Shown here in pieces: positions 20,555-42,943 of a stretch of 64,000 nt of DNA. The stretch is from Solicola gregarius (GTDB lineage Bacteria; Actinomycetota; Actinomycetes; Propionibacteriales; Nocardioidaceae): positions 4,216,001 to 4,280,000 of the forward strand of contig NZ_CP094970.1 in NCBI RefSeq assembly GCF_025790165.1, in the 5' to 3' direction. Under the pieces are notes generated by a model. It worked only from the letters and a program-made list of their open reading frames with translations. It ran no database searches and had not been told where the DNA came from. Position numbers and translations under genes: made by a program. How positions within the stretch are numbered: position 1 is the first letter of the stretch; every line of letters starts with the position of its first letter.

Positions 20555-20614
20555 TTGCTACATAGCGGCGCGGAGTACCATGGGCACGTGGTAGACCGCG
20601 CCACTATGTAGCAA
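20555..20614. repeat. Long palindrome, copy 1 of a tandem pair, at the uvrA 3' end
   Basis: A 60-base hairpin. TTGCTACATAG pairs perfectly with CTATGTAGCAA, then GGCGCGG with CCGCGCC and TACC with GGTA, giving about 22 paired positions. It lies 6 bases after the uvrA stop, facing the convergent TPR gene, so it can act as a terminator. Its sequence is also echoed in the neighbouring palindrome. Confidence 0.75.
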
Positions 20615-30847: not shown

Positions 30848-31657
30848 GTGGCACAGAGCCGCACCCCGCTGATGGCGGGCAACTGGAAGTCGAACCTCAA
30901 CCACCAGGAAGCCGTCGTCCTGGTGCAGAAGCTCGCCTGGACGCTGCAGGACAAGAAGCACGACTTCGCCCGTGCGGAGGTCGCGGTGATCCCGCCCTTC
31001 ACCGACCTGCGCAGCGTGCAGACCCTAATCGACGGCGACCGGCTGAAGATCACCTACGGCGCACAGGACGTCTCGGTGTACGACGGGGGCGCGTACACCG
31101 GCGACATCTCTGCGGGCATGCTGGCCAAGCTCGGCTGCACGTACGTGATCGTCGGGCACTCCGAGCGGCGCGAGTACCACGGCGAGGACGACGCGACGGT
31201 CGCGGTCAAGACCCAGAAGACCATCGCCGCCGGGATGACCCCGATCGTCTGTGTCGGGGAGGGCCTGGAGGTACGCCAGGCGGGCGAGCAGGTCGACCAC
31301 ACGCTCGCCCAGGTCGACGGTGCTCTGACGGGGCTGACGCCCGAACAGGTGGCGGGGCTGGTGATCGCGTACGAGCCGGTCTGGGCGATCGGGACGGGCG
31401 AGGTCGCAACGCCTGCCGATGCGCAGGAGGTGTGCTCGGCGATTCGGAAGCGACTCGTCGAGACGGCGGCGCCGGAGGCCGCCTCAGCGACGCGTATCCT
31501 GTACGGTGGGTCGGTCAAGGCCACCAATATCGCCTCGATCATGGCGCAGCCCGACGTCGACGGCACCCTCGTCGGCGGCGCGAGTCTGAAGGCCGATGAG
31601 TTCGCGGCGATCGGACGGTACTACGACATGCCCGACCTGAACATCGACAACACGTAA
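30848..31657 (+). CDS. tpiA: Triose-phosphate isomerase
   Basis: Interconverts dihydroxyacetone phosphate and glyceraldehyde 3-phosphate. The 269-residue TIM barrel has GNWKSN with catalytic Lys, GHSERRE with the catalytic His, [11 protein letters not shown] with the catalytic Glu, and LYGGSVK for phosphate binding. The start is GTG 30848. It is third gene in the glycolytic operon, with secG 13 bases downstream. Confidence 0.97.
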
Positions 31658-31670
31658 GGCCACATCCGCT

Positions 31671-31907
31671 GTGATTCTGCTCTTCGAGATCGTGCTCGCC
31701 ATATCGAGCCTCGTGATGATCCTGCTCGTGCTGATGCACAAGGGCCGCGGTGGCGGGCTCTCCGACATGTTCGGCGGCGGTGTGTCCAGCGGCCTGGGCG
31801 GCTCCTCTGTCGCCGAGCGCAACCTCGACCGCCTCACCGTCGGCACCGCGGTGATCTGGGCGGTCAGCATCGTCGCGCTGGGGTTGCTGCTGAAGGTGTC
31901 GGCCTGA
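31671..31907 (+). CDS. secG: Preprotein translocase subunit SecG
   Basis: A 78-residue component of SecYEG. Two transmembrane helices (about 2-22 and 57-76) flank the conserved cytosolic loop MHKGRGGGLSDMFGGG. The start is GTG 31671. Its position after tpiA is standard in actinobacteria. Confidence 0.94.
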   Translation: MILLFEIVLAISSLVMILLVLMHKGRGGGLSDMFGGGVSSGLGGSSVAERNLDRLTVGTAVIWAVSIVALGLLLKVSA

Positions 31908-31919
31908 GAGATTACGTGA

Positions 31920-31949
31920 CGGGGGTTGTAACGTCGCGGGGGTTGTAAC
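31920..31949 (+). promoter_or_regulatory. Tandem 13-base direct repeats upstream of rbpA
   Basis: CGGGGGTTGTAAC occurs at 31920-31932 and again, identically, at 31937-31949, a 17-base period, 37 bases before the rbpA start. They may be activator sites or overlapping promoter elements; rbpA is stress-controlled in other actinobacteria, but no known sigma-factor consensus is matched cleanly. Confidence 0.45.
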
Positions 31950-31985
31950 ACCGAGCACTGAGAGCCCGACCCGGGAGGACAATTC

Positions 31986-32343
31986 GTGGGCAGCGGAAGT
32001 GCAATACGTGGGACCCGAATCGGGTCGGGACCCATGGGTGAGGACGTGCGCGGCGCGCCCGCCCCACGCTCGCACGTCAACTACTACTGCGGTAACGGAC
32101 ACGCGACGTCGCTGAGCTTCAGCAGCGGCGTCGAGCCACCGGACCGATGGGACTGCTTCGAGTTGCGGGCTTCCCGCGGGTGCGGATGCGGACAACCCGC
32201 CGCCGCTCGTACGCATCGAGCCGTACAAGACCCATCTTGCGTACGTCAAGGAGCGCCGCTCCGACGACGAGGCGGCCGCGATCCTCGACGAGGCGCTGTC
32301 CGACCTGCGTACGCGCCGCAAGAACGGCGAGGCGATCTACTAG
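31986..32343 (+). pseudogene. rbpA: RNA polymerase-binding protein RbpA, single-base frameshift
   Basis: RbpA binds the sigma factor and core RNA polymerase and stabilises open complexes. The start region (SAIRGTRIGS) and zinc-ribbon half NYYCGNGHATSLSF...WDC are in one frame from GTG 31986. An extra T at 32163/32164 shifts the frame; removing it gives WDCFECGLPAG and a continuous tail PYKTHLAYVKERRSDDEAAA...NGEAIY ending at TAG 32341-32343. The corrected protein is about 118 residues, family length. The gene is essential or important in relatives, so a sequence error is the likelier cause. Confidence 0.87.
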
Positions 32344-32344
32344 G

Positions 32345-32418
32345 GCGTTCGCGTTTCGGACCCTTTGCGGGGGTGCCCCGCGCCGCGTACCCCCGCGAAG
32401 GATCCGAAACGCGAACGC
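32345..32418. repeat. Long palindrome, left copy flanking the DUF559 gene
   Basis: GCGTTCGCGTTTCGGA pairs perfectly with TCCGAAACGCGAACGC (16 base pairs), then CCTT/AAGG and GCGGGGGT/ACCCCCGC, leaving a 14-base loop: 28 paired positions in 74 bases. It starts 1 base after the rbpA stop, so it can terminate rbpA. Its core (GTTT-GGACCCTT-GCGGGGGTG) recurs at 33417-33476. Confidence 0.8.
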
Positions 32419-32477
32419 GTGGGGATCGCACCTGTGGATAGCGGCGCCGTTCGTCCGCCGCGGAGGCATGCTGTGGT

Positions 32478-33407
32478 GTGTCACGCGCATCCACCATTCC
32501 GCCCTCCCTGCGTGGGCGTCCGTTCACCCGACGGCAGGCGATTGCTGCCGGCCTCTCTGCCGACTCCCTACGCGGCTCGCGGTTTCGTACGCTGTTCCGC
32601 GGCGTCTACGTCGTCGGTGACGAAGAGCCGACCTTCGCGTCCTATGTCGTCGCCGCATTGTTCGTACTGCCGAGCGACGCGGTCATCTCGCACGTCACGG
32701 CGCTGTGGTGGTATGGCGTGCATATCGGGTCGATGTGGCCGCTGCATTTCTCGACGAACACGACACTCAAGACTCGCCACGACGGTGTTCGGCTGCACCG
32801 TCGTCGCGGCAAGCTGAGACCCGTCCGTCACGACGAGCGTGAGGTATCCGGTCCGGAGCGTGCGTTCGTAGACTCGGCCACGCTGCTGCCGTTCGTGCTG
32901 CTCGTGATGGCCGGCGATGCCTTGATGCACGCGAAGCACACCAGCCTGCAGGCCCTCGGCGAGTACTGCGACGCCAGCCACATCCACGGTGTGGTGCGCG
33001 CTCGGCGTACGCTCCCGTTCCTCTCGGAGGGCGCGGAGTCACCGATGGAGACCGTCGTCCGGCTGATGCTGGTGCTTGCGCGGCTACCGATGCCCGAGTG
33101 CAACCCGGAGATCTGGCACGCGGGCCGATTCGTCGCTCGGTGCGATCTGGTGTTCCGCGCGTACAAGGTGATCGTCGAGTACGACGGCGAGTGGCACGAA
33201 CGGAGTCGCAAACAGCGTCAGCGCGACATCGAGCGCCGGGAGGCGCTCGAAGCTCTCGGCTGGACGGTCATCGTCGTGGTCGTCGAGGACCTCAAGGACA
33301 AGCGCGAGATCGTCCGCCGCGTGCATCGCGCCATAGTGGCGCACGGATACGCAGGGCCGAAGCCGGTCTTCAACATCATGTGGCAGGGATGGTTCGAGCG
33401 CGACTGA
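32478..33407 (+). CDS. DUF559/Vsr-like endonuclease-domain protein with AbiEi-like N-terminus
   Basis: A 309-residue protein. The N-terminal 90 residues (FTRRQAIAAGLSADSLRGSR...LFRGVYVVG) resemble the winged-helix AbiEi-type antitoxin region. The C-terminal 110 residues match the DUF559 very-short-patch-repair-like nuclease fold: CDLVFRAYKVIVEYDGEWH, then RDIERREALEALGW. Function is unproven; such genes occur in many copies in actinobacteria and are annotated variously as AbiEi-like antitoxins or nucleases. No partner toxin is adjacent. The gene is bracketed by two related palindromes and splits the otherwise conserved rbpA-pgl neighbourhood. Confidence 0.75.
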   Translation: MSRASTIPPSLRGRPFTRRQAIAAGLSADSLRGSRFRTLFRGVYVVGDEEPTFASYVVAALFVLPSDAVISHVTALWWYGVHIGSMWPLHFSTNTTLKTRHDGVRLHRRRGKLRPVRHDEREVSGPERAFVDSATLLPFVLLVMAGDALMHAKHTSLQALGEYCDASHIHGVVRARRTLPFLSEGAESPMETVVRLMLVLARLPMPECNPEIWHAGRFVARCDLVFRAYKVIVEYDGEWHERSRKQRQRDIERREALEALGWTVIVVVVEDLKDKREIVRRVHRAIVAHGYAGPKPVFNIMWQGWFERD

Positions 33408-33416
33408 CCGCGTTCG

Positions 33417-33476
33417 CGTTTTGGACCCTTAGCGGGGGTGTACGACGAGGTACACCCCCGCCAAGGATCCAAAACG
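33417..33476. repeat. Long palindrome, right copy flanking the DUF559 gene
   Basis: CGTTTTGGA/TCCAAAACG, CCTT/AAGG and GCGGGGGTGTAC/GTACACCCCCGC pair around a 6-base loop, 25 pairs. The core is nearly identical to the palindrome at 32345-32418, including the same C-A mismatch after GGA. It lies between convergent stops and can terminate both the nuclease gene and pgl. Confidence 0.8.
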
Positions 33477-33483
33477 GGGACGG

Positions 33484-34203
33484 TCAGAGGGCGCTGGCGG
33501 CCGCTTCGTCGAGGTGCCAGACGGTTTCGGTCTCGCCGCGTACGCCCGACGCCGGCGACTCGCCGACGCTCGCTCCGGCGGCGACTGACCGTGCCACCGC
33601 TTCCGCCTTGCCTGCGCCCGAGACGATGAACCACACGGCCCGTGATCGGTTGAGCGCGGCGTACGTCAGGCTGATCCGCAGCGGCGGCGGCTTGGGGGAG
33701 TCCTCGACGGCGACCGCGATCTGATCGTCGACGTGGAGCTGTGGGTAGCCCGGGAACAGCGAGGCGATGTGTCCGTCGGGTCCGAGGCCGAGCAGCAGGA
33801 CGTCGAACGAGCCCGCTCCGAACTCGCGTACCTCGTTGCCGTACGCTTGCGCGCCCGCGTCGAGGTCGCGGTCGTCGGCCGATGGCATCTCGTGGATGCG
33901 CCCCGCGCGGGCGCCGAGGTCGTCGAGAAAGGCCTCGCGGGCCTGCACGGCGTTACGATCGGGCGAGTCGCGGGCGACGAACCGCTCGTCGCCCCACCAG
34001 AACTCCACCGATGTCCACTCGACCTCGTCACGTCGCGGCGAGGCGGCGACCGCGCGGTAGAGATCGTTCGCGATCGTGCCGCCGGTCAGGCCGAGGTGGG
34101 GTACGCGTCCGGAGCGCTGCACGGCGGAGAGCCGCTCGATGAGCGCCTCCGCGACCGTCGAAGTGAGCGCTGCCGCGTCTCGGTGTCGGACGATCTCGCT
34201 CAT
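33484..34203 (-). CDS. pgl: 6-phosphogluconolactonase
   Basis: Hydrolyses 6-phosphogluconolactone in the oxidative pentose phosphate pathway. The 239 residues carry the sugar-phosphate isomerase-like motifs HLGLTGGTIANDLY, FWWGDERFV and LLLGLGPDGHIASLFPG. ATG 34203 overlaps the opcA stop by 4 bases. It is last gene of the tkt-tal-pgi-zwf-opcA-pgl unit; the palindrome at 33417-33476 follows. Confidence 0.94.
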   Translation of the reverse strand: MSEIVRHRDAAALTSTVAEALIERLSAVQRSGRVPHLGLTGGTIANDLYRAVAASPRRDEVEWTSVEFWWGDERFVARDSPDRNAVQAREAFLDDLGARAGRIHEMPSADDRDLDAGAQAYGNEVREFGAGSFDVLLLGLGPDGHIASLFPGYPQLHVDDQIAVAVEDSPKPPPLRISLTYAALNRSRAVWFIVSGAGKAEAVARSVAAGASVGESPASGVRGETETVWHLDEAAASAL

Positions 34204-35162
34204 GCGGACGCCTTTCGCTTCTTCGGCTTCGCGTCACCGGCCGCACGCTCGACGCGTACGAGCACGTGGCGCACGGCCTGTGCGTACACCTCGTCCTCGT
34301 CGAGGCGACGGAGGTCCTCCGCCAGGCACTCGGCGACGGTACGGCGGTTCAGCGCGACGGGACGATCGGCCTCACCGGGGATCGTGAACGTGCCCGTCGT
34401 ACCCGCGTCGCGATGCACCGCGATCTCGCCGCGCGGCGTCTGCAGGCGTACGTCGGTGAGGCCCGGGCCACGCGACGTCGTGTGTGTGATCTCGACGCCG
34501 AGCCGGGCTTCGAGCCAGCCGCACATCAGGTCGGCGCTCGGGTTTGCGCGCGCCGCCGACACTCGACCGCCGGTGACCGGGCCGTCGACCTGGTCGACCG
34601 CCGCGGCAAGCAGCGCTCGCCACGGCGTCAGCCGGGTCCAGGCCAGGTCGGTGTCACCGGGTGCGTAGTGCCGCGCCGCGGAGACCAGTGCCTTGCGCTT
34701 CGACCCACGGACCGCCGCTGCATCGGTGATCCGGCGTTGCGCCAGGCTGCCGATCGCGTCGGCGCTCGGGTTGTCGGGTGCGTCCGTCGGCCACCAGACG
34801 ACGACGGGGGAGTCGGGCAGCAGCAGCGGCAGGACGGCCGACTCGGCATGGCGTACGAGCTCACCGCTGACCCGCAGCAACAGCGACTCGCCGGGGGAGT
34901 CGTCGCCGATCGAGACCCGCGCGTCGAGCTGCGCCGCTCCGCGGGTCGACCGACGGACGAGACCGATCACCCGCGAGGGATGCTCCGACGACACCTCGCC
35001 GGCCGCCTTCATCGCGTCGTAGTGCGATGCCTCGTCGGTGACGACGACGAGTGTCATCACCATGTCCATCGCGGGACTACCCGCATTGCGGCGCGCGCGT
35101 ACGAGCGCGTTCGCGATGTCCGATGAGGTCGTGTCGGTCAGCTCGAACATAGGCCCTCTCAT
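34200..35162 (-). CDS. opcA: Glucose-6-phosphate dehydrogenase assembly protein OpcA
   Basis: A 320-residue OpcA, the allosteric/assembly partner of glucose-6-phosphate dehydrogenase in cyanobacteria and actinobacteria. Family segments include TLVVVTDE, SPVVVWWPTDAP and LAWTRLTPWRALLAAA. ATG 35162 overlaps the zwf stop (ATGA). A second ATG four codons later (MFELTD) would give a more typical N-terminus, so the exact start is uncertain. Confidence 0.93.
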   Translation of the reverse strand: MRGPMFELTDTTSSDIANALVRARRNAGSPAMDMVMTLVVVTDEASHYDAMKAAGEVSSEHPSRVIGLVRRSTRGAAQLDARVSIGDDSPGESLLLRVSGELVRHAESAVLPLLLPDSPVVVWWPTDAPDNPSADAIGSLAQRRITDAAAVRGSKRKALVSAARHYAPGDTDLAWTRLTPWRALLAAAVDQVDGPVTGGRVSAARANPSADLMCGWLEARLGVEITHTTSRGPGLTDVRLQTPRGEIAVHRDAGTTGTFTIPGEADRPVALNRRTVAECLAEDLRRLDEDEVYAQAVRHVLVRVERAAGDAKPKKRKASA

Positions 35163-42879: not shown

Positions 42880-42943
42880 CGCTGGGCCGCACGTTTGGCC
42901 CGTGCCGGACCGATCCGGCACGGCCGAAACGTGCGGCCCAGCG
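42880..42943. terminator. Strong hairpin after ctaB
   Basis: CGCTGGGCCGCACGTTT pairs perfectly over 17 bases with AAACGTGCGGCCCAGCG, and inside it CCGTGCCGG pairs with CCGGCACGG around a 6-base loop. It begins 17 bases after the ctaB stop and precedes the P450 operon promoter, separating the two units. It has no U-tract. Confidence 0.75.

Follow-up and report, generated by a model that had tools for sequence, protein, structure and literature searches.

The closest described counterparts of the locus analysed here are the REPtrons (REP/REPIN–RAYT systems) of Pseudomonas, E. coli and other bacteria, in which an enzyme gene lies between short palindromes, further copies of which are scattered through extragenic DNA, with one repeat class per enzyme. 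REPINs are inverted doublets set at a fixed distance around a less conserved spacer (PMC3116915), and RAYT genes are often flanked by REPs (PMC3733652). Our analysis of a nuclease gene of Actinomycetota, its homologs and the palindromes around them shows a strikingly similar organization: the enzyme gene stands between palindromes that recur elsewhere, these have the form of inverted doublets with a constant spacing and a variable centre, and each enzyme has its own repeat. The REPtron enzyme, however, is an HUH/Y1 (IS200/IS605-like) transposase and its repeats carry a GTAG end, whereas the protein here combines AbiEi-like and Vsr/EDxHD-like parts, no GTAG-like terminal tetranucleotide is common to the palindromes listed and the repeats vary freely between gene lineages. 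With an unrelated enzyme and no GTAG tag, the system falls outside the strict definition of a REPtron; there is a fair chance that it belongs to a separate class of mobile element. Insertion-sequence MITEs offer another parallel as short, non-coding inverted-repeat elements that rely on an enzyme encoded elsewhere, but the cassette here holds no DDE/HUH transposase, shows no clear target-site duplication and has an element of 57–75 bp.

The gene lies in the window (the whole 64-kb stretch of DNA that was analysed) between two convergent host genes, rbpA (31986–32343, forward strand) and pgl (33484–34203, reverse strand; 6-phosphogluconolactonase, Pfam PF01182, 9.8e-67), which form the left and right edges of the insertion site. 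The upstream palindrome, U (32345–32418), consists of two 37-nt arms or half-sites (32345–32381 and 32382–32418) that are 86% complementary. The downstream palindrome, D (33411–33482), starts 3 bases past the stop codon of the nuclease gene, and its 33-nt arms (33411–33443 and 33450–33482) are 88% complementary. These are the longest two low-mismatch hairpins in the window. They are 79% identical to each other over 73 nt and have in common a C·A mismatch within GGACCCTT/AAGGATCC, which bears out an earlier, sequence-only reading of two matching palindromes around the gene, with slightly wider limits for D than the 33417–33476 given there. Folded as single-stranded DNA, U and D reach −38.5 and −31.1 kcal/mol (z-scores against shuffles of −8.3 and −9.2), and 0 of 200 shuffles were as good.

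Without a mismatch, the core GGACCCTTNGCGGGGGT is present only at the U and D sites of the 4.9-Mb genome. A BLAST search of that genome gave a third full-length copy, solitary and 75% identical (G000:C1:3163890–3163964), and the complete doublet was found in 0 of 197 other genomes of the same bacterial family. We therefore rejected an ordinary terminator as the identity of the window palindrome. A scan of window positions 31000–35000 yielded no terminator-like site and no T-tract, and the same interval had no Rfam match. Since there are only three copies, 75–79% identical, the window's own repeat family may be inactive. Elsewhere in the window are two palindromes with sequences unlike U and D, at 42880–42943 (30-nt arms, 93% complementary) and 20555–20614 (26-nt arms, 88% complementary), which may be solitary representatives of further palindrome families. 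A 17-bp direct repeat (ACGTGACGGGGGTTGTA / ACGTCGCGGGGGTTGTA) occupies 31914–31947 between secG and rbpA, and the reading frame of rbpA itself slips by one base near 'gagttgcggg' (32150–32180), through either a genuine frameshift or an error in the sequencing.

The nuclease gene (32478–33407, forward strand, GTG start) encodes a 309-residue protein that matches Pfam DUF559 (E = 3.8e-7), and its structure was predicted with a mean pLDDT of 96.4 (96 homologs). Residues 3–183 (32484–33026, forward strand) form an AbiEi-antitoxin-like DNA-binding region, according to structure comparison (AbiEi antitoxin 6y8q, VIA-align Z 11.9, rmsd 5.7 Å, 175 residues aligned; Rv2827c 1zel, Z 8.4) and a PADLOC match to AbiEi (5.9e-11). 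A nuclease domain follows at residues 186–291 (33033–33350, forward strand), delimited by structure comparison and conservation; it resembles the catalytic domain of the homing endonuclease I-Bth0305I (3r3p; Z 12.1, 2.4 Å, 96 residues), NGO0050 (Z 11.1) and Vsr (1cw0; Z 10.3), and matches a Vsr-like EDxHD sequence profile (E = 0.0033). The predicted structure is that of an AbiEi-type DNA-binding domain joined to a nuclease of the Vsr/EDxHD homing-endonuclease type. The residues D223, E234 and H240 are invariant among homologs, from which we judge the nuclease to be probably active.

What is known of the two parts bears on how the protein might meet its repeats. I-Bth0305I binds its target, which spans nearly 60 bp, as a dimer (PMC3943268), and AbiEi proteins bind palindromes in promoters, by which AbiEi antitoxins autoregulate (PMC11062541); together, these precedents make it plausible that a dimer of the AbiEi–DUF559 protein would sit on the 57–75-bp inverted repeat. 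The likeness to I-Bth0305I lies in the catalytic fold and in the long two-part target expected here, and the differences in the N-terminal AbiEi-like part and in a gene that is intergenic instead of residing in an intron or intein. With AbiE type IV toxin–antitoxin systems (AbiEi, including Rv2827c), the protein shares its N-terminal fold and a palindrome upstream of the gene, but it has a C-terminal nuclease, downstream and dispersed repeats, and no adjacent gene for an AbiEii nucleotidyltransferase toxin. Vsr and Vsr-like DUF559 endonucleases, such as Caulobacter VsrA, have the nuclease fold and the DUF559 domain in common with it; unlike them, the protein here has an extra AbiEi-like domain, palindromic flanks and no known tie to a methylase. 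Beside the nuclease gene, where the neighbours are rbpA and pgl, we found no partner toxin or methylase gene. Cargo of plasmids or phages was considered and rejected, as only five plasmid records and one phage record gave matches, all distant.

Flanking palindromes are common at homologous loci. In a set of 120 distinct homologs from the window's bacterial family, palindromes of approximately 57–78 bp are typically placed 50–110 bp 5′ of the start codon (median position of the upstream repeat, −75) and 0–25 bp 3′ of the stop codon. Within 150 bp of the genes, a total of 36 kb, there are 91 strong hairpins, compared with 14 in the other approximately 313 kb of the same loci, a roughly 57-fold difference in density. 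Upstream and downstream flanks match each other within 88 of the 120 loci against an expected 1%, the threshold being the 99th percentile of mismatched (between-locus) pairs, and the median score is 34 against a null of 12.8. Outside the bacterial family, matching flanks were found at 16 of 30 loci, including L042 of Amycolatopsis xylanica, which alone was found when named genomes were scanned with the window protein as the single query. About one quarter of same-family loci and one half of distant loci have no detectable flank match. Paralogs in the window's own genome follow the pattern, with matching flanks at L326, L327, L328 and L151 and a downstream palindrome only at L138. The flanks of L327, and of L048 from another genus, are short tandem arrays of a half-site of about 22 bp in inverted orientation, not a single palindrome. 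The sequence-only reading was to fall if other DUF559 genes lacked the palindrome and it occurred widely as an ordinary terminator; other DUF559 genes do have palindromes, and that of the window is not a widespread terminator.

The check proposed with the sequence-only reading, whether other DUF559 genes have the same core, gave a negative answer: palindrome sequence differs at nearly every locus, and each gene or close ortholog group has a private palindrome that diverges with the protein. Across all loci, palindromes are alike only where the proteins are at least approximately 70% identical, and the same-genome paralogs L128 and L142, at 71% protein identity, already have differing palindromes. 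The coupling is also seen with the L105 palindrome: among 49 genomes of its genus, only two have it, exactly those with 95%-identical nuclease genes, and no other protein in the set exceeds 56% identity.

Palindromes of these gene-specific families are also dispersed as solitary copies, which have the same ends and about the same length as the flanking copies and differ from the cassette copies by 10–20% in sequence. Copy numbers come from BLAST-type searches and are lower bounds: the L111 palindrome occurs at at least 24 places in G134; G048 holds at least 10 solitary copies of the L011 palindrome and at least about 13 of the L083 palindrome; G008 holds at least about 7 of L128 and at least about 9 of L142; the L105 palindrome has at least about 8 copies in each of G109 and G112; and the L138 palindrome has at least two solitary copies in the window's genome. 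In the genomes examined, one cassette stands to at least 7–24 solitary copies. Solitary copies lie between convergent (26), tandem (15) and divergent (0) gene pairs, and cassettes show the same bias (59 convergent, 28 tandem and 5 divergent).

Comparison of sister species, which the sequence-only reading had suggested as a search for empty sites, revealed such sites. At the L011 site of genus g21, G048 carries the cassette, G021, G069 and G056 are free of it, G063 has a cassette with a different palindrome and in G037 the place is taken by a solitary palindrome from a further family. When seven sites with solitary copies in G048 were compared with relatives, these sites too were empty, occupied by the same family or occupied by another family. 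Between G109 and G112, which are about 91% identical in nucleotide sequence, at least five solitary sites are held in common, and a clean empty site in G109 (TTCTAG|CCGCTAGG) stands opposite the copy at G112:800141, with a flank identity of about 91%. One L105-type copy in G109 has an unrelated palindrome at the orthologous G112 site; the replacement palindrome, GTCCTTTCGACAAGCTCAAGGA...TCCTTGAGCTTGTCGAAAGGAC, lies at L364 5080–5190. The empty-site comparisons showed no consistent target-site duplication; at a single site, a 4-bp CCGC repeat may be present.

The rbpA–pgl junction of the window is itself a site of turnover. In G008, another species of the genus, rbpA and pgl are convergent neighbours with no nuclease gene between them, and among 40 genomes compared the gap is 12–460 bp in most relatives without the gene, in keeping with the earlier statement that the nuclease gene interrupts this pair. 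DUF559 homologs that are 28–36% identical to the window protein are present at the same junction in at least four other genera (L048, L053, L065 and L071), in both orientations. Such distant homologs, in both orientations at one junction, suggest that recurrent insertion at a single permissive site fits better than inheritance. The junction of G005 (L072) has a solitary palindrome from the family that flanks the DUF559 gene L181 elsewhere in G005. A solitary tandem half-site array is seen at the junction in L054 (1280–1498), and a homopolymeric G/C palindrome at that of G037 (L051 2224–2292) is probably an assembly artefact.

The repeats keep a strict architecture. Members of one family agree in total length to about 1 bp (57, 59, 64, 75, 68 and 70 nt), and the outer 20 bp or so of each arm are 90–96% conserved around a variable centre. 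Pairing between arms equals the independent expectation in most repeat families (p = 0.14–0.99); of the two G048 families, one has a weak outer signal (p = 0.028) and the other has inner covariation (p = 0.0005). In the gene sense, G·T and A·C mismatches number 87 and 87 in downstream repeats and 105 and 79 in upstream repeats, the latter a mild bias. Selection for an RNA hairpin was judged unlikely on these grounds, there being no strand bias downstream, a mild one upstream and arms mostly without covariation. Constant length with independently varying arms is what two protein-read half-sites would be expected to produce, and we picture the repeat as two conserved half-sites of about 20–25 bp, read by a protein at fixed spacing in duplex DNA or, less probably, as a cruciform.

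On balance, we think that the cassette in the window probably belongs to a family of REPIN/REPtron-like miniature mobile elements in Actinomycetota that is served by a non-RAYT nuclease. Movement of the repeats would be the work of the AbiEi–DUF559 nuclease. Its AbiEi-like part would read a half-site of about 20–25 bp, a pair of subunits would occupy the two half-sites, which are a constant distance apart, and the Vsr/EDxHD-type domain would make its cut within the repeat or next to it. Through cutting and repair, the short repeat and, more rarely, the entire cassette with the gene would then be copied or moved elsewhere. Insertion may be tolerated where convergent genes meet at their intergenic 3′ ends, or a strong hairpin placed there could serve as a bidirectional terminator. 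No hydrolytic PD-(D/E)XK-type enzyme is known to transpose DNA alone, so a copying step by host repair has to be assumed. The stronger proposal, that an AbiEi–Vsr/EDxHD nuclease and not a transposase spreads a gene-specific repeat through cutting and host repair, and so defines a new class of mobile DNA, is tentative, and we hold its chances to be slightly short of even. The earlier likening of the locus to a REPtron-style or homing cassette survives as an analogy, through the flanks of homologs, the dispersal and the differences between sites. It does not extend to a strict REPtron, and homing into one allelic site, as with EDxHD homing endonucleases, finds no support, since the copies here are at many unrelated intergenic sites.

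The main rival to the REPIN-like model takes the entire repeat–gene–repeat cassette as the mobile unit and the solitary repeats as remnants of recombination, like solo LTRs. Direct repeat copies in every cassette could indeed recombine, solitary and flanking repeats have the same ends, and a cassette is present or absent at the L011 site; we nevertheless find this account unlikely, because solitary copies outnumber the cassette so heavily, no second cassette with the same repeat was found at the loci examined and the solitary copies are 10–20% different from the cassette copies. Less probable still is that the repeats are purely host regulatory DNA, with an autorepression operator upstream, a terminator downstream and solitary copies acting as a regulon or as bidirectional terminators. 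The median upstream position of −75, the autoregulation of AbiEi through promoter palindromes (PMC11062541) and the preference of solitary copies for gene 3′ ends all accord with such a role, but it does not account for the downstream copy, for dispersed copies at 3′ ends instead of promoters or for orthologous sites that are empty or hold unrelated palindromes, and the T-tract and the downstream excess of G·T over A·C expected of terminators are missing. Upstream autoregulation and downstream termination may well exist in addition to mobility; regulation alone is insufficient because it leaves dispersal and turnover unexplained.

A role in defence, with the protein as nuclease or toxin and the repeats as its protective or titrating sites, seems to us very improbable. 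AbiEi and Vsr-like domains do occur in defence proteins and the turnover between genomes is typical of conflict genes, but no partner toxin or methylase gene adjoins the nuclease gene, neither the dispersal nor the target context is predicted, and the family is nearly absent from phage and plasmid records. We give almost no credence to the idea that these are ordinary REP elements moved by a RAYT and that the DUF559 gene plays no part: palindromic, intergenic inverted doublets of fixed length are as in REPINs (PMC3116915), but the repeats are specific to the DUF559 gene that they flank, and Y1_Tnp (PF01797) was found in none of eight of these genomes in a search whose E. coli control was positive, although a sufficiently diverged transposase could escape this profile. 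On that absence, RAYT was rejected as the driver.

In the open-access papers searched, we found no description of DUF559 or AbiEi–DUF559 proteins tied to palindromic repeats. DUF559 nuclease genes are very common in actinobacteria. Our analysis offers a hypothesis of function and a candidate DNA partner for each member of this gene family, and the gene–repeat pairs amount to a ready-made set of recognition specificities for a nuclease whose putative target is long and in two parts. They may also show that the REPIN problem, the persistence and spread of short non-coding palindromes in bacteria, has been solved a second time by unrelated means. If true, the model would account for DUF559 genes being multicopy in Actinomycetota and would provide an enzymatically independent counterpart of the REPIN–RAYT system.
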